IMG/VR virus record: IMGVR_UViG_3300027704_000079
Coordinates: 1-33,704 of that record
Strand: one strand, 5' to 3'
DNA length: 33,704 nucleotides
From: a virus
Below are positions 20,997-29,952 of this stretch, in pieces. A program made the position numbers and the translations under genes. The first letter of the stretch is position 1; every line of letters starts with the position of its first letter. The notes below the pieces were generated by a model. That model worked only from the letters and a program-made list of their open reading frames with translations. It had not been told where the DNA came from and did no database searches.

Positions 20997-21276
20997 TAAT
21001 TTTCTCTTCGATTAGGGTAATAAGGACATCACCCATAAAATTCTTAAACGGTTTAGATTTTTCTAATTTGTTCTTCTTCTTTCCTTCTGGAACTTCATTG
21101 ATTGTGAAGTCAAACTTAACAACTGGCTCATCAACAGAACCAGTGATTTCTACTTTGCCGTATGTATATACTACACCAGAGTACGGTCCTTGTACAACCT
21201 TTAATGAATACAATTCGCTGTCGCCTCTTTCGACGAATTTGATGTATCGATCTACATTAATCTTATTCGCAGCCAT
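20950..21276 (-). CDS. Small acidic protein between uvsX and gp41 (108 aa)
   Basis: It starts MAANKINVDRYIKFVERGDS, then strands (GPYSGVVYTYGKVEITGS), a lysine-rich turn (GKKKNKLEKSKPF) and a very acidic tail (EEKINDDESAKADTEESDD). The beta-rich body plus acidic tail recalls single-strand binding proteins, but I cannot assign it. The conserved position in the recombination/replication operon suggests a helper of UvsX or the helicase. It has one of the few strong ribosome binding sites here, GAGGAGG 6 bases before the ATG, encoded within the end of uvsX. Confidence 0.75.
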   Translation of the reverse strand: MAANKINVDRYIKFVERGDSELYSLKVVQGPYSGVVYTYGKVEITGSVDEPVVKFDFTINEVPEGKKKNKLEKSKPFKNFMGDVLITLIEEKINDDESAKADTEESDD

Positions 21277-22312
21277 CGCTATCCTCCTCTCTTACCATTT
21301 CAACTGTTCCAACCTTGAATCGGTTTTCGATATAATCTTCGAAGTCGGTCTTTTCGAATACTGGTTCCCAGAATGACTTTTGAAGAGTTTGCTTAGCTCT
21401 AACATTTCCAGAAAGTTCCTCAGCGGTCGCAGGGTTTCTTGCTTGGTACCAACCATTTTTTGGTTTAATAACATAGCCGCCGATGATAGCGACATCAAGT
21501 AATCCAGACCATTTTTCGATGCCTCCGTCCCAAGAAACAGTAATAGGAATCTTTGATTTTTCTTTAACAAACCGTGATTTTTCGACGTTGATTACGAAAT
21601 GATATCCCTTGATTTCTGTGCCATCTTTTTCTTGTCGCCGGCCAATAATCCAAACATTATCTGCTGAATACATTACCCCGGTTCCTCCTGAAACAACTGC
21701 TTTTGGGAACATGCCTTGCTCCATATATGTATGATTGATCGCGATCAATGGTATGTCTTTAATAGTTAAAGTTGGCGTGATCATTCTGAATAAGCCTTTG
21801 AGAGCTTTTGCACGAGTCATATCAGCGACAGATTTCATATTCTCGGCATCATCAACTTCTTTCTTAGAAGCAATATTGCCGACAGAATCGATGATAATAA
21901 TGACTTTATCTTTACGGTCCAGCTCGTTAAGTTGATGCACCATATCAAACTTTAACTCTTCGATGTTTGTAACTGGTGTATGAAGCACGCGAGTGGTGTC
22001 GATTCCAAATGATTTAAAATACGCTTCGGGAGAACCGAATTCTGAATCATAAAACATCAAAATGGCATCATCGTGTTTTTTTAAATAAGCAGCTGCCATT
22101 AGCAGAGCAAATGACGTTTTAAAGTGCTTCGATGGCCCCGCCAAAACAGTAAGTCCAGATGCGAGGCCACCGTCGATTTTGCCAGAAAGTGCAACGTTGA
22201 TCATTGGCACTGGTGTTGAAGTTAGTTCTTTTTCAGAAAAGAGTTTTGATTCTGAAAGAACTGCTACTCCCGCAGAGCGGGAGGATTTTTTTAATTTATC
22301 TAATAGTGACAT
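21263..22312 (-). CDS. uvsX: RecA-like recombinase UvsX
   Basis: A 349-residue strand-exchange protein for recombination-dependent replication. Walker A is GPSKHFKTS (59-67), as in T4 UvsX rather than bacterial RecA. Walker B is VIIIIDSVGNIASKKE near residue 140, and the L1/L2 region holds AINHTYMEQGMFPKAVVSGG. The C-terminal acidic segment ends REEDSDGCE. Length is near T4 UvsX (391), somewhat short at the C-terminus. First gene of the uvsX-108aa-41 unit, with a leader of about 13 bases from the promoter at 22333-22361 and no Shine-Dalgarno. Confidence 0.93.
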   Translation of the reverse strand: MSLLDKLKKSSRSAGVAVLSESKLFSEKELTSTPVPMINVALSGKIDGGLASGLTVLAGPSKHFKTSFALLMAAAYLKKHDDAILMFYDSEFGSPEAYFKSFGIDTTRVLHTPVTNIEELKFDMVHQLNELDRKDKVIIIIDSVGNIASKKEVDDAENMKSVADMTRAKALKGLFRMITPTLTIKDIPLIAINHTYMEQGMFPKAVVSGGTGVMYSADNVWIIGRRQEKDGTEIKGYHFVINVEKSRFVKEKSKIPITVSWDGGIEKWSGLLDVAIIGGYVIKPKNGWYQARNPATAEELSGNVRAKQTLQKSFWEPVFEKTDFEDYIENRFKVGTVEMVREEDSDGCE

Positions 22313-22371: not shown

Positions 22372-23397
22372 CTATAGGAAGAACGCGTCTAGGTCGTTTA
22401 ACTGAGGTTCAGTCCAGTTCTTACCCTGCCAATGCGGATATGATGCTCGTGATAGGTGCACAGATTGTGGCTTTTCCATTACATCAAAACTGAGTTCTCC
22501 GATAGTATTCCTCAGTTTTGACGTCCATTCATAAATCGGTGTATGACTTTTCAATCTTTCAATGAATGCTTGACGTACATCTGTTCGTTGTTGCCATGAT
22601 CCATAGAATGGTGTTTTTTTGTACCAACCAGTTTTTGGCACTTTACGAGATTCGTTCTCAATTGGTAGTGGTTCCCATGGTAGAACAGAAGCATTATACG
22701 CATCAGAGATTCTATTTATCTCAATGCTGTAGCGATCTGCCAGCTTTTTAGCTTCTTCGATTGGGTTATCGAATCTGCATAGGTGATGTCGTATATCAAT
22801 GTTGCCAAAATAGGTTTCAATCTTATCGTATTCTTTACCTTCTGGAATGAACGTTTCAAACCCTCGATTGATCGAACCGTGCAGTGTTGAGAATGGGACA
22901 GACACATTTTCCCACTGAGGACGATACATGCAAATCGCATGACTATCTCCGAATGATAAACTTGAATAATGTTTAATTGTGTTCGGATCCACAGTAACTG
23001 CATCAGCTTGCAACTTCTTTAGGTTTTTCCAATCAACTTCGTTCCATTCAAGATTTGCCTTTGTAAGGCGATCTTCGAACATCGAGGAGTAATCAGGAAA
23101 GTCGACAAGAATGGACTTCACCTCACCTTTGAAATTGGATAGCGCAACCAAGAAGTCTTTATTCGTATAGGCTTGAATACCACCAAAGAGGTTGAGTCCA
23201 CCGCCCCAATCACTGCCATGATAAAAAAAGATTTCGTCATAAGGAGAGTAGTCTTTAATCTTATCAGATACCAAATTGATTGTCACATCATATCCACCTT
23301 CCGATAATTGGCCAGCATATATAATAGCCTGAGCTGCTTTGTGCGAATGTATCTTATTTGAGATCGGACCCAAACTAGTTAACAATATTTTTTTCAT
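22372..23397 (-). CDS. SGNH-like conserved phage protein with clamp-binding-like tail (341 aa)
   Basis: Residues 1-140 look Rossmann-like (MKKILLTSLGPISNK, DEIFFYHGSDWGG). FGDSHAICMYRP at 149-160 holds a GDSH block like the nucleophile motif of SGNH/GDSL hydrolases, and YFGNIDIRHHLC near 196-207 resembles the G-x-x-D-x-R block of that fold. A further conserved-looking stretch is ENESRKVPKTGWYKKTPFYG. The last ten residues, QLNDLDAFFL, resemble the end of the phage polymerase (ADLQEFFF). Substrate unknown; a DNA-associated role is an inference. It overlaps the upstream gene by 23 bases. Confidence 0.7.
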   Translation of the reverse strand: MKKILLTSLGPISNKIHSHKAAQAIIYAGQLSEGGYDVTINLVSDKIKDYSPYDEIFFYHGSDWGGGLNLFGGIQAYTNKDFLVALSNFKGEVKSILVDFPDYSSMFEDRLTKANLEWNEVDWKNLKKLQADAVTVDPNTIKHYSSLSFGDSHAICMYRPQWENVSVPFSTLHGSINRGFETFIPEGKEYDKIETYFGNIDIRHHLCRFDNPIEEAKKLADRYSIEINRISDAYNASVLPWEPLPIENESRKVPKTGWYKKTPFYGSWQQRTDVRQAFIERLKSHTPIYEWTSKLRNTIGELSFDVMEKPQSVHLSRASYPHWQGKNWTEPQLNDLDAFFL

Positions 23398-24043
23398 CTT
23401 TCTTAAAATTTTTGTATTCTTCTTTATTTGAAATCCACCATTCTTCTTCTAGCAACCATTTTTCCATTGCCTGAGCAGAACCGCTTTCTTCTTTGTACTT
23501 GCGGGCAAGTTTTCTTGTTGTAATAGGTGGCACAAAGTTTTTGTATATGTTTATACGTGGGTTGAATCCATAATAACACAATCTACCGCTTGCTCTTTGT
23601 CCAAGGTGATAATAATCACTAATATCAAGATAATCAAACTGTGCTGCAGTTGGGTCATAGGTTTCTTGAGTCTTGTTATCACGCAAAAACCAATGTGTCG
23701 TAAACTCGCCCTTAAGCTTATGTGGTATTTTTTTGTAAATCGTATAAGCTTCAAAATTATGAAAACCACCAATGTACTGAAAAAATCTAACAGCATGATA
23801 GCATTTTCCCAGTAGAGGATGAGGCTCAATTCCCTGTGCTCTCATTCTTTCATCTTGATCTCCCCAATTTGAATCAGATGTAGCAGGTCTTTCAGCCAAT
23901 TGACCACTAAAGAAACTCGGTGTCACGTCGAGATTGCGTGTGAAAAAATCAATCATGCTATCAAAATTTTCGATAACGTGGTTTCTATACTTTTCAGACT
24001 CTCGTTCTGCGTATTTAACGATTTTGCTTTTTGAAGAGTGCAT
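23375..24043 (-). CDS. Protein with possible Cys-His-Asp triad (222 aa)
   Basis: I use the ATG at 24041-24043 (MHSSKSKIVKYAERESEK); a TTG eight codons further up is less likely. Visible are GKCYHAVRFF (Cys81), FTTHWFLRD (His117) and ETYDPTAAQFD (Asp130). The Cys, His and Asp order and spacing are those of papain/transglutaminase-like folds. I remember similar C-Y-x-A / H-W-F-L / D-P-T-A-x-Q-F proteins in other phages, without known function. Basic C-terminus (ARKYKEESGS, KKDEKN). It overlaps genes on both sides, so the three are one translational unit. Confidence 0.65.
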   Translation of the reverse strand: MHSSKSKIVKYAERESEKYRNHVIENFDSMIDFFTRNLDVTPSFFSGQLAERPATSDSNWGDQDERMRAQGIEPHPLLGKCYHAVRFFQYIGGFHNFEAYTIYKKIPHKLKGEFTTHWFLRDNKTQETYDPTAAQFDYLDISDYYHLGQRASGRLCYYGFNPRINIYKNFVPPITTRKLARKYKEESGSAQAMEKWLLEEEWWISNKEEYKNFKKDEKNIVN

Positions 24044-25226
24044 TGCATTTTTCTTTGTATTCCTCAACTGACATTCCTGCTGCCTTTAATACAGTATCAT
24101 CTGAAGGGTGATTCTTAATTCCATTAAATGTATCTACAAGACCGAGATCGATCATTGCTCGCTGTCTTCCATATGGGTGATCCTTGATGCTCGACGAATT
24201 CCATACTCCATCAAAATCTAGATCGGCGTAATCAGCCCCAGGGCGAACATAGTTTTCAATCCATCGAATAAAGTCACATGCAACATCCTCTGCATTATAG
24301 GGAACAGATCCGCTATCTTCATAAATTTTCATCATCACTGCATCTAGGAATTCTTCTGACTTCTTTCCCTTACCATTAGGAGTGTCTGCCAAATAACCAA
24401 TGCATTCTACAGCGTTCGTTCCATAATAGAACATTGAGTCGAGATTAGTAAATTGCGGAAACCAATCAGCAATGTCTGCAATGAGTGCTGCGTATTGGAA
24501 ACGGTATACTCTTAGACCATTTGCTCGGTTCCATTTGAACATCCATTCCCCGATCTCTCGGAGATCACGCTTACCGCCTTTCTCTAAGAAAGATGCTAAC
24601 TCACGAGCTAATCGTGGTACATACTCACATAGGAAGTAATCTCCTCCTCGTTTGTATACATAATCGCCATCGATACCAAACAGGGGAGCTGCTTCTACCT
24701 GAGGCTTTGGCGGTTTAGGGAATGCAGGGAACTGATAACCAACAGAAGTGTAAAATGTCTTTTTAGTAGACTTTACTTGTTCACACATTTCTTCAATTGT
24801 ATCCGATTGCCACAGATCAAATAAGAGTGTGTTGTGATAACCGCTTGGTTTCGTTGCGTAGTTGATCGCTGATCCGCAGACCCGGTGGAGGATAAACACA
24901 TACAACCATTCAGCTAATCCAAACTTATCGCGTTTATTTGACCAATTTGTAGCTGCATCTTTACGTTGTTGAGTATATAGTCCTGCATCCATTCGTGACC
25001 AATATGGATGATCGTCTGACCAACCATAGAACGCATCATTTACAATCTGACTAAACCCTGCGTACTTTCTCTCAACGACATCATAGAGTTCAACTTTCTC
25101 CATAAGAGAATCGCCAACCTGCGAATCCTTATGTGGTGTATGACCCAAGTTTGATTTTTCCTGTTGATCTTTAGCCAAATGGAAATACCGAATGAACTCA
25201 TCATAATATTTTGTTGTTTTAAACAT
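24015..25226 (-). CDS. Conserved phage protein of unknown function, candidate base-modification enzyme (403 aa)
   Basis: A helical, tryptophan-rich protein starting MFKTTKYYDEFIRYFH. Notable segments: FSQIVNDAFYGWSDDHPYW, LAEWLYVFILHRVCGSAINYA (about residues 105-125), YFLCEYVPRLARELASFLEKGG and IADWFPQFTNL. It vaguely recalls helical proteins of phage thymine-hypermodification pathways (alpha-glutamyl/putrescinyl thymine enzymes), but I cannot confirm the similarity. It is followed by two genes that overlap it and each other, and preceded at 1 base by a DUF1599-like gene. Confidence 0.65.
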   Translation of the reverse strand: MFKTTKYYDEFIRYFHLAKDQQEKSNLGHTPHKDSQVGDSLMEKVELYDVVERKYAGFSQIVNDAFYGWSDDHPYWSRMDAGLYTQQRKDAATNWSNKRDKFGLAEWLYVFILHRVCGSAINYATKPSGYHNTLLFDLWQSDTIEEMCEQVKSTKKTFYTSVGYQFPAFPKPPKPQVEAAPLFGIDGDYVYKRGGDYFLCEYVPRLARELASFLEKGGKRDLREIGEWMFKWNRANGLRVYRFQYAALIADIADWFPQFTNLDSMFYYGTNAVECIGYLADTPNGKGKKSEEFLDAVMMKIYEDSGSVPYNAEDVACDFIRWIENYVRPGADYADLDFDGVWNSSSIKDHPYGRQRAMIDLGLVDTFNGIKNHPSDDTVLKAAGMSVEEYKEKCNALFKKQNR

Positions 25227-25227
25227 C

Positions 25228-25569
25228 TTAGCCCTTTTTGATTTCCCGATTCAAGAAGTCACGATCTGGGTCTTGACCTTCGATTTTACCACGGGAGTAT
25301 GCTACAGCAAATGAAGAGTAATTAATCAAATCCTTTAAAGAGTCTTCAATAGACTCAAAGTTTGGTTCGTATGTTGGATCATTTTCCATAGCTTCGATAA
25401 GCGACCACAATCTGATAGTTTTAGTATTAATCAATTCCATAATTGACATAACACCTCTCGGATAGTAGTCTGCCTGCTTGATGCGTGATGTAGGATTTTG
25501 GTAATCCTTGGATTTCTTCACTTGAATGTCTGAGCATTCCTTAAGTACTTTAATTGATTCCTTTTCCAT
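25228..25569 (-). CDS. DUF1599/Nmad1-like nucleotide-modification-associated protein (113 aa)
   Basis: An all-helical protein with the pattern KSKDYQNPTSRIKQADYYPRG, INTKTIRLWSLIEA and ESIEDSLKDLINYSSFAVAY. The K-D-Y, R-G, K-x-x-R-L and DxxKDLINY features are those of the DUF1599 (Nmad1) family, a relative of MazG-type helical bundles that is linked to nucleotide modification by gene neighbourhood. It has its own promoter at 25580-25608, with the ATG 10 bases from the -10, and leads the 403-222-341 cassette. Confidence 0.65.
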   Translation of the reverse strand: MEKESIKVLKECSDIQVKKSKDYQNPTSRIKQADYYPRGVMSIMELINTKTIRLWSLIEAMENDPTYEPNFESIEDSLKDLINYSSFAVAYSRGKIEGQDPDRDFLNREIKKG

Positions 25570-25579
25570 GTTGGTAGCT

Positions 25580-25608
25580 ATTATACACTAATTTCGTTAC
25601 TTTGTAAA
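25580..25608 (-). promoter_or_regulatory. Early promoter, TTTACA-17-TATAAT
   Basis: -35 TTTACA at 25603-25608, -10 TATAAT at 25580-25585 on the minus strand. It lies inside the last codons of the gene ending at 25581. Confidence 0.8.
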
Positions 25609-26015
25609 ACAAATCTTTCGTTGTTCCACTTATAAACGCCATTTAATTCGTAGTCTGCGGTTTTTCTATTACCGATAAACACATACAAAATATCTGGATA
25701 TCCTCTCCATGTTTGTAATTTTGCTTTTTCGGCTCTTTTTAAAACATATGGAACATAGTACTCTCCTTCAGTGACTTTGATTTCTACTGAACGGCCTTTG
25801 ATGTCGATAAGGTCTTTATATTTACGATCATCATCGCTGTAGCCGCACTCTTGAATAAGATACGCTTCGGCTGCATGGCCATATAAAGTGGTCTCTAAAA
25901 TGTTTTGAAACGTTCTATTGCGGCGTGTGCTATCTTTCGAATAAATTTCACTCGCCTCGTTTTCAGCTCGGTTGAGATAAAACTCCCTGTTTAATTCTGT
26001 TGCGTTAAATTTCAT
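25581..26015 (-). CDS. Possible PD-(D/E)XK nuclease-like protein (144 aa)
   Basis: A soluble protein starting MKFNATELNREFYLNRAENE. YGHAAEAYLIQE (Glu about 50) is followed by YKDLIDIKGRSVEIKVTEG near residues 66-84, where Asp and E-x-K could form a PD-(D/E)XK core, and by PDILYVFIG with a second aspartate. The pattern matches small restriction-endonuclease-like proteins of phages, but the residues are not decisive. It is coupled to the upstream dCMP-hydroxymethylase-like gene by an ATGA overlap. Confidence 0.55.
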   Translation of the reverse strand: MKFNATELNREFYLNRAENEASEIYSKDSTRRNRTFQNILETTLYGHAAEAYLIQECGYSDDDRKYKDLIDIKGRSVEIKVTEGEYYVPYVLKRAEKAKLQTWRGYPDILYVFIGNRKTADYELNGVYKWNNERFVLQSNEISV

Positions 26016-26746
26016 GAGTCGCCCATCGATGATTCAGCAAGAGCTTGCACCTCTACAGCTTTAGTTCTTGACTCAATTTCCTTCTCGATAAATTTAAAGT
26101 GGCGCTCATACACATGCAAAGATCCAACTTGCCAAGTGATGTCACCTGATGAATAGTTGTTATTGGTGTCCTCATTTAAATCTTTTACGAGGTAATCGAG
26201 GACAAACTTTTGCCATGCGTAATCGTTTCTATAACCAAATACGACGTCATTCGAGCGCATTTGCACAACAGAATGTACAACATTGTCGCGGATCATATAC
26301 TGTACAGCATTAGTGCAAATAAAGTCTGACATACCATTGACATTGAAATCGAGGTGCATCGTGGGTCGCTGGTAAATCACTACAGCACGTCTAGAATTAG
26401 GATCAACCAAAAGCTGCTTGAGAACAGCCATGTATTGACTATAGTTTTCTTCGGCGAAGACTAAATAGCCATAATTTGAATTAATCTTGCCTGTTCCAGA
26501 GGAGATTTGTTTCCAGATTTGAGGTGTTTTTTCAGGTATATCATCAACATAAAGACTTTCGCTGAGATACCACTCAATCTCGCGGGCAATATATTCCTCG
26601 TTAGGCGAGCCAAAGATTGTTTCCTCATCGGCAATAAATGAGGCACCTACGATTTCGAGGGTTTTTACGTCGGTCTTATCAGTGACATATTTCTCTTTAG
26701 TAAATAGATCAATGAATTGATCTCTGATATCTTCAGTTGTAGTCAT
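26012..26746 (-). CDS. Thymidylate-synthase-fold enzyme, probable dCMP hydroxymethylase type (244 aa)
   Basis: The thymidylate synthase fold is recognised by PNSRRAVVIYQRP (phosphate-binding arginines 119-120), SDFICTNAVQYMIRD with catalytic Cys144, MRSNDVVFGYRNDYAW (164-178) and SLHVYERH near residue 210. The position equal to Asn177 of E. coli thymidylate synthase, which recognises dUMP, is Asp175 here. Aspartate there marks dCMP-using enzymes such as T4 gp42. So the product is probably hydroxymethyl- or methyl-dCMP rather than dTMP; ThyX, encoded nearby, would make dTMP. The ATG lies only 5 bases after the -10, so the mRNA is leaderless. Length equals T4 gp42 (246). Confidence 0.7.
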   Translation of the reverse strand: MTTTEDIRDQFIDLFTKEKYVTDKTDVKTLEIVGASFIADEETIFGSPNEEYIAREIEWYLSESLYVDDIPEKTPQIWKQISSGTGKINSNYGYLVFAEENYSQYMAVLKQLLVDPNSRRAVVIYQRPTMHLDFNVNGMSDFICTNAVQYMIRDNVVHSVVQMRSNDVVFGYRNDYAWQKFVLDYLVKDLNEDTNNNYSSGDITWQVGSLHVYERHFKFIEKEIESRTKAVEVQALAESSMGDS

Positions 26747-26787: not shown

Positions 26788-27225
26788 TTACTCTGTAATG
26801 ATTTCACCTGAAAAAATCCGACTTGCAATTTCTCCAGCGTCTCCTTTAATCCTCTTGCCGCTAGGATAATAAGCTTTTAAATTTGTAAACTCAGACGCAT
26901 TTTTCCAAACAAGAGATGCTTGTTTTTGGCCATTTTCATACCAGCAATCAAATTGCCCATGCAGTTTGCCATCCTTAACTCCACCTTTTGCAAGGATGTT
27001 TCCATTAGGGTGGTATCTAACCAAAATTCCGCTAAAAACGTTATCCTTACTCAGCCTGGCTGATTTATAGAAAACCCCGGTGAATGGATCGACGAACAAA
27101 TCCTCACCATTCATAGTCGGACCGTCGGGATAGACCGCCGGCCGATTAACGTATGCTTCAGTACCATACTTAAATAGTATCGATACAAGTAGGATTGCTG
27201 TTGTTATTATTGCTAGTTTTTTCAT
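26788..27225 (-). CDS. Membrane-anchored MORN/YwqK-like protein (145 aa)
   Basis: Residues 1-17 (MKKLAIITTAILLVSIL) form an uncleaved signal anchor, so the body faces the periplasm. From about residue 60 come antitoxin-like MORN-variant repeats: FSGILVRYHPNGNILAKGG, then GKLHGQFDCWYENGQKQ and NLKAYYPSGKRIKGD. Each has the Y-x-x-x-G-(K/N/Q) pattern of YwqK-type proteins. No lipobox cysteine. Function in phages is unknown; it could act in the envelope of the host. It follows ThyX by 7 bases. Confidence 0.7.
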   Translation of the reverse strand: MKKLAIITTAILLVSILFKYGTEAYVNRPAVYPDGPTMNGEDLFVDPFTGVFYKSARLSKDNVFSGILVRYHPNGNILAKGGVKDGKLHGQFDCWYENGQKQASLVWKNASEFTNLKAYYPSGKRIKGDAGEIASRIFSGEIITE

Positions 27226-29528: not shown

Positions 29529-29942
29529 TTAGAGACTTGAAATTTTGCCGTGATTACCTTCGTGCGACGGTGCGACCCAGCCCGCTGGTTTAATCAAATC
29601 CGGCAAACCCAATGGATTCGGGCGTTCTGGTTTAATGCCAACCACTTTTGACATATTAGCAGAATGAACTTTAGACCAAGCTTCTTGTGAATCAATGCCA
29701 AAAGCATCTAGTGTACCAATTGCTACGACGCATAAATCGATTAATCCATCAACAACCTCTTCTGCATCAACTGGAGTTTTTGATGCGGCCGTTTTAGTTT
29801 CGTTAAGCTCTTCTTCAAGAAAGTTTAAACGAAACTGCAAATATTCTCGAAGGTGCGGTGCGTCGAAGTTTTCGATTACTTCGTGCACACCATATTTTCT
29901 GTGCATATCGCGGACGTCATCATTCCAATCTTTTGTTTTCAT
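29529..29942 (-). CDS. MazG-like nucleotide pyrophosphohydrolase (137 aa)
   Basis: An all-helical NTP pyrophosphatase fold: FLEEELNETKTA (EExxE metal site, about residues 42-53) and DAEEVVDGLIDL (ExxxD, about 59-70), followed by AFGIDSQEAWSKVHSANMSKV and a conserved PNPLGLPDLIKPAGW tail that phage MazG-like enzymes share. It would hydrolyse noncanonical or excess NTP/dNTP, possibly dCTP if cytosine is replaced. The in-frame ATG at 29948 sits 4 bases after the -10 and is too close to be transcribed properly, so I prefer 29942. Confidence 0.8.
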   Translation of the reverse strand: MKTKDWNDDVRDMHRKYGVHEVIENFDAPHLREYLQFRLNFLEEELNETKTAASKTPVDAEEVVDGLIDLCVVAIGTLDAFGIDSQEAWSKVHSANMSKVVGIKPERPNPLGLPDLIKPAGWVAPSHEGNHGKISSL

Positions 29943-29952
29943 ATTCATATAT

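Follow-up and report, generated by a model that had tools for sequence, protein, structure and literature searches.

Several systems that hypermodify pyrimidines in phage DNA have been described. In phage T4, with the gene order 43 - imm - 42 - bgt - segA - uvsX - 40 - 41, 5-hydroxymethylcytosine (hmC) is glucosylated, while the thymidine hypermodification of phages M6 and PaMx11 combines a kinase, HMUDK_hel, an amino-acid:DNA transferase, a PLP enzyme and a radical SAM enzyme, with the PaMx11 enzyme PUGT being a 5-phosphomethyl-dU glycinyltransferase. Furthermore, hmC is the substrate of a 5-hmC carbamoyltransferase whose gene is found together with those for dCMP deaminase and thymidylate-synthase-type enzymes (MetaGPA, PMC8670742), CmoA/CmoX/CmoY attach an amino acid to a handle on cytosine to give 5-glycylcarboxymethyl-cytosine in phage DNA (PMC12783734) and phage RB69, which possesses gp42 without glucosyl-hmC, carries arabinosyl-hmC (PMC6024577). 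In phages 44RR, 31 and 25, gene 42 is present without a glucosyltransferase, and other modifications of hmC were then an open matter (Petrov et al., 2010, PMC2993671).

The locus reported here is located on a stretch of 33,704 nucleotides, positions 1 to 33,704 of the IMG/VR virus record IMGVR_UViG_3300027704_000079 and hereafter called the window, which is a 33.7 kb fragment of a T4-type virus with recognised genes for DNA polymerase, UvsX, a DnaB-like helicase and ribonucleotide reductase subunits. The genes follow the order pol - ... - dCMP hydroxymethylase - nuclease-like - MazG-like - 403 - 222 - 341 - uvsX - 108 aa - gp41, where 403, 222 and 341 designate three uncharacterised proteins by their length in amino acids. 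As the three genes lie between the gene 42 equivalent and uvsX, the interval that holds bgt in T4, they occupy the bgt slot, with the uvsX recombinase gene (21263..22312, minus strand; phrog_97, 8e-90) marking the gene 42 - bgt - uvsX slot. All six cassette open reading frames, from the hydroxymethylase to 341, are on the minus strand at the coordinates given by the first-pass annotation, and the overlaps it had noticed, 29 bases between 403 and 222 and 23 bases between 222 and 341, are exact with the 222 aa gene taken from its ATG; an upstream TTG start would lengthen this protein to 230 aa. Chance open reading frames are ruled out, since the same genes are found in conserved order on many independent phage contigs. 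We favour, with a probability of roughly 0.7, the reading that this island directs a non-glucose hypermodification of 5-hydroxymethylcytosine from the position of bgt, its likeliest part being that the island acts on hmC in DNA. While the kind, phage pyrimidine hypermodification, is known, the cassette itself is undescribed in the literature searched, where, at partial coverage, neither an SGNH enzyme in connection with hmC nor this cassette was found described. The first-pass annotation had already suspected an undescribed hypermodification cassette; its reading as an hmC cassette is supported, but two of its gene labels, Nmad1 and nuclease, did not hold as stated.

The hydroxymethylase gene (26012..26746, minus strand) encodes a 244 aa protein whose alignment with T4 dCMP hydroxymethylase (PDB 1b49, 2.4e-86) covers most of the chain, with the catalytic-Cys motif present and Asp at the position of thymidylate synthase Asn177, which marks specificity for dCMP over dUMP. 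These features bear out the proposed dCMP-hydroxymethylase-type enzyme, and by sequence the protein is a gp42-type dCMP hydroxymethylase. A ThyX gene is located nearby in the window, and between the two genes positions 26788-27225 encode a 145 aa protein that combines MORN-type repeats with a hydrophobic segment at its N-terminus. The 113 aa protein (25228..25569, minus strand), a putative MazG/Nmad1-like nucleotide pyrophosphatase, had been placed in DUF1599/Nmad1, whereas it scores 16.2 bits against this Pfam family, under the gathering cut-off of 25, and matches the phage MazG/hydrolase-type families phrog_1485 (4.9e-12) and phrog_18404 (1e-11); a MazG-type pyrophosphatase is more likely than Nmad1. 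The gene is conserved next to the hydroxymethylase among relatives, and in the window a second MazG-like pyrophosphatase gene (29529-29948) adjoins DNA polymerase. The 144 aa protein (25581..26015, minus strand) shows, by eye, a PD-(D/E)XK-like pattern D-x(n)-ExK, and similar ExK proteins occupy the same slot in relatives; Pfam, PHROGs and NCBIfam gave no significant family match, which leaves the nuclease label, drawn from the motif, a weak one.

The 341 aa protein (22372..23397, minus strand) is a chimera of a T4-BGT-like N-terminal acceptor domain (~1-120) and an SGNH fold (~140-324), neither a plain glucosyltransferase nor a canonical hydrolase. Scans of Pfam, PHROGs and NCBIfam matched solely PHROGs of unknown function, and a PDB sequence search with the 341 profile gave nothing useful. 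In the AlphaFold model (pLDDT 82), residues ~140-324 match SGNH proteins over ~165 residues (VIA Z 13-14, rmsd 3.1-3.7), these matches being mostly carbohydrate O-acetyl esterases or transferases, and T4 BGT is also among the Foldseek matches. A profile-profile comparison by hhalign of 56 members of the 341 family with eight BGTs matched the N-terminus colinearly to BGT residues 1-116 (96.6%, E 5.6e-10), with a score of 79 against at most 31 among 200 column-shuffled controls; BGT had been chosen by eye after the fold list, which means that this was no blind test, although the score clears the controls by a wide margin. Residues 1-116 are part of the half of BGT that contacts DNA in solved BGT structures. 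The C-terminal UDP-glucose-binding domain is not matched in 341, where the profile match stops at BGT residue 116, and a simple BGT was rejected because the homology is confined to the N-terminal half. At the column equivalent to BGT Asp100, 40 of the 56 members possess Asp, 6 Glu and the rest P, N, H or S. In the SGNH half, the GDSH motif with the block I Ser is invariant (56/56) and the block III Asn and block V His are each present in 54/56; the usual triad Asp, expected three positions ahead of the catalytic His, is missing there throughout the family, with Q, K, R, S or H instead, and the conserved Glu308 or Asp201 of 341 may act as a stand-in.

For the 403 aa protein (24015..25226, minus strand), scans of Pfam, PHROGs and NCBIfam gave nothing significant. 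No Pfam match at all was obtained among 29 members of its family, including PF18724 (amino acid:DNA transferase) at E up to 1, for which M6 gp51 served as positive control (1.4e-46). The best solved fold match of its AlphaFold model (pLDDT 80) is PUGT (8z2n; VIA Z 8.1, rmsd 4.0, 206 residues), with AGOG/Ogg DNA glycosylases next in rank (AGOG Z 7), and a viral homologue 58% identical to 403 bears the BFVD label "amino acid:DNA transferase". Across the fold searches as a whole, the folds among the matches listed were SGNH and HhH. With moderate confidence, the predicted fold resembles that of an amino-acid:DNA transferase or HhH glycosylase, where a Z of ~8 may reflect a common helical arrangement. 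Profile links of 403 to PF18724, to PF18723 and to a 330 aa helical protein encoded by relatives were not above shuffles or had E 0.05 or worse, and PDB sequence searches with the 403 and 330 profiles gave nothing useful; the 330 aa protein compared with HMUDK_hel beats all 80 shuffles, yet with E 0.011 this is a lead only.

The 222 aa protein (23375..24043, minus strand) contains the motif GKCYxA...THWFL...YDPTAxQF, in which Cys, His and Asp are ordered as in papain/transglutaminase-like enzymes, and is a putative Cys-His-Asp enzyme, although neither scans of Pfam, PHROGs and NCBIfam nor a PDB sequence search gave anything significant or useful. It has one close homologue and shares GKCYxA...THWFL...DPTAxQF with a domain in a 735 kb uncultured phage (LR756501), whose 1233 aa open reading frame (L205:3095-6796) comprises deaminase-like, 222-type Cys-His-Asp and nucleotidyltransferase-like regions, unrelated domains which are separated by repeated DPYGEE(D/R)W peptides, and is possibly a polyprotein. 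For all three proteins the first-pass annotation had guessed well: the SGNH-like 341 agrees with the fold match and gains a BGT-type N-terminal domain, the helical enzyme 403 gains a predicted amino-acid:DNA-transferase/HhH-glycosylase-like fold, and the Cys-His-Asp protein 222 has its motif in common with the large phage.

Relatives were collected as 122 distinct 403 sequences, from 80 loci of a first scan and from scans with the 341 and 330 aa families, and split into type A (36, uvsX adjacent), type B (27) and 59 left untyped. Type A, which includes the window, encodes 341 in 36/36 loci, the 330 aa protein in 23 and a PLP enzyme in 34; the remaining two, the window and L088, are also the sole carriers of the 222 aa gene, the trio in L088 being ordered 341-222-403-uvsX. 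Judged by gene content, 222 takes the place of the PLP enzyme, and of the 330 aa protein, in a module swap. The PLP family, absent from the window, shows homology to M6 gp52, the neighbour of the PF18724 transferase in M6, and a UDG-like gene is found in many relatives, as in M6. The hydroxymethylase is present in 13 of the 14 type A loci whose upstream sequence extends to 5 kb, and long type A contigs of 66-167 kb possess both hydroxymethylase (8/8) and 403 (8/8).

Type B, a second marine group carrying the cassette mostly without hydroxymethylase, has the order MazG - 341 - 403 - 330 - PLP - polymerase with ribonucleotide-reductase genes nearby. Of the 15 loci that could be checked over 5 kb upstream, none has a hydroxymethylase nearby, and contigs of up to 150 kb mostly lack one as well; among the type B records searched whole, just two encode a divergent homologue of thymidylate-synthase-like type, in which Asp occupies the specificity position. 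Regular occurrence of homologues without the dCMP enzyme, which the first-pass annotation had named as counting against its own reading, is thus seen in type B but not in type A. A C5-methyltransferase (PF00145), which might supply type B phages with a handle, was absent from 14 records, while a search for TET/JBP (PF12851) was uninformative, as its control gave no match anywhere. The 5-hmdU DNA kinase helical domain (PF18723) was found in 0/24 relative records, the window record itself being a fragment. Among 84,980 bacterial and archaeal species, just six loci were found, all in metagenome-assembled or binned genomes. Additional genes were observed in some loci: type B cassettes encode a CitG-like triphosphoribosyltransferase (Pfam 8e-11) or, by eye, a LOG phosphoribohydrolase-like protein (L018:7179-7976, L100:9166-9843), enzymes of kinds that act on N-glycosidic bonds, and in L077 (4729-6238) genes that by eye are epimerase-like (sugar-nucleotide) and UDP-glucose-dehydrogenase-like are located between a MazG-like gene and the hydroxymethylase.

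Among cultured phage records, the 341 family is found in 38 of Aeromonas, 3 of Tenacibaculum and 2 of Stenotrophomonas phages, is absent from T4 and M6, and among the records searched no coliphage matched the 341 or 403 family. Aeromonas phages 44RR, AS4, phiAS4 and avDM4 possess both gp42 and 341, whereas Aeh1 and 65 lack both; 341 is present in 44RR, 31 and 25, and the 44RR and AS4 proteins extend into a fused C-terminal region that matches PF18723 weakly (0.003). In Tulanevirus Aeromonas phages (phiAS4, L195:1775-5047), genes for UDP-galactopyranose mutase and a 358 aa GT-like protein with a faint BGT-like stretch precede the 341 homologue, and in 44RR (L193:2408-6388) a sodium/galactose symporter gene does so, which suggests galactose-linked DNA chemistry in these phages. 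In Tenacibaculum phage PTm1 a 341-family gene (L196:5572-6591) adjoins ribonucleotide reductase genes, and its genome gave only a weak thymidylate-synthase-like match to the hydroxymethylase (2e-5).

Compared with T4, the island thus shares the gp42 orthologue, the genomic slot and a homologous DNA-acceptor domain, but the C-terminal half of 341 is SGNH instead of a UDP-glucose domain and 403 and 222 (in relatives, PLP) are added. The M6/PaMx11 pathway may be resembled in the fold of 403, with PUGT as its best solved match, and is resembled, in relatives, in the M6 gp52-type PLP enzyme and often the UDG-like gene (M6 gp48); unlike there, the hydroxymethylase is dCMP-type and not dUMP-type, no kinase or radical-SAM gene was identified, an SGNH/BGT chimera is found instead and the window is without PLP enzyme. 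No carbamoyltransferase gene was identified in the island, although the hmC substrate would be common to both systems, and the CmoA/CmoX/CmoY route, comparable in that an amino acid ends up on cytosine, with its methyltransferase, asparagine-synthetase-type ligase and Cx-SAM chemistry, uses genes unrelated to those of the island. With RB69 the island would share a gp42 phage background without glucosyl-hmC, but the RB69 modification is a sugar.

In the proposed pathway, hm-dCMP would be synthesised, phosphorylated and built into DNA as hmC, while MazG-type enzymes would trim competing dCTP. After replication, flipped hmC would be bound by the BGT-like domain of 341, whose SGNH domain would transfer a group onto the 5-hydroxymethyl oxygen, replacing glucosylation, the product being either the final group or a leaving group, the role of the 5-hmdU kinase in phage M6. 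The 403 enzyme might next put an amino acid or amine on that position, and the adduct might be tailored by the PLP enzyme in most relatives or the Cys-His-Asp enzyme in the window lineage, with the presumed purpose of shielding phage DNA against host restriction or CRISPR. This is the best explanation of the gp42 identity, the bgt-slot synteny, the 341-BGT homology, the SGNH fold, the 403 fold, the M6 gp52-type PLP family, the type A co-occurrence, the PLP/222 exchange (34 vs 2) and the Aeromonas gp42/341 pairing. It is counted against by type B without nearby hydroxymethylase, by the missing PF18723 and the missing 403 match to PF18724/PF18723, and also by the triad Asp off its usual place and by M6 without the 341 family. 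In its full form, to which we give somewhat less than an even chance, this would be a sugar-free branch of hmC modification, widespread among the T4-type phages of sea and fresh water, in which the BGT sugar-nucleotide domain is replaced by an SGNH acyl-/group-transferase, joined by an amino-acid:DNA transferase and interchangeable PLP/Cys-His-Asp tailoring, and in which the 341 part caps hmC in gp42-positive phages without glucosyltransferases.

The hmC adduct could, on the other hand, be a sugar to which the SGNH domain of 341 adds, or from which it removes, an acyl group, leaving the hydroxymethyl group itself untouched. The carbohydrate O-acetyl esterases and transferases among the SGNH matches, the galactose-related genes beside 341 homologues in phiAS4 and 44RR and the sugar-nucleotide-type genes of L077 point this way, but in the window, as in most type A loci, the island contains no recognised sugar-nucleotide or glycosyltransferase gene, and the constant partners, 403 and the PLP enzyme, point to amino-acid chemistry, which makes a sugar adduct unlikely. 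That hmC is not the target but some different base or nucleotide is, the gene 42 neighbourhood in type A being secondary, would fit type B, where the full cassette adjoins genes for MazG, polymerase and ribonucleotide reductase, mostly without hydroxymethylase, and where extra CitG-like and LOG-like genes occur. We regard this as rather improbable given the BGT-like acceptor domain of 341, the strict coupling to gp42 seen both in type A and in the Aeromonas phages, and the dCMP-enzyme Asp in both type B thymidylate-synthase-like homologues. PLP, SGNH and Cys-His-Asp enzymes are generic, and the DNA-modifying activity is predicted from the genes; a small-molecule or cofactor pathway located in the replication region by chance, with no DNA modification, is nevertheless very hard to reconcile with the exact bgt-slot position, the BGT homology of 341, the DNA-glycosylase-like fold of 403 and a cassette nearly confined to phages.

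What protects hmC in the gene-42-positive, glucosyltransferase-less T4 relatives 44RR, 31 and 25 was left open (PMC2993671), and as 341 is present in these phages but absent from gp42-negative Aeh1 and 65, the question is testable in cultured phages. If the proposed hypermodification of hmC is true, it would add an hmC chemistry that does not use glucose, together with a new joining of domains in which an SGNH enzyme carries the acceptor domain of BGT, and would be useful for base-specific DNA labelling and for insight into phage counter-defence.
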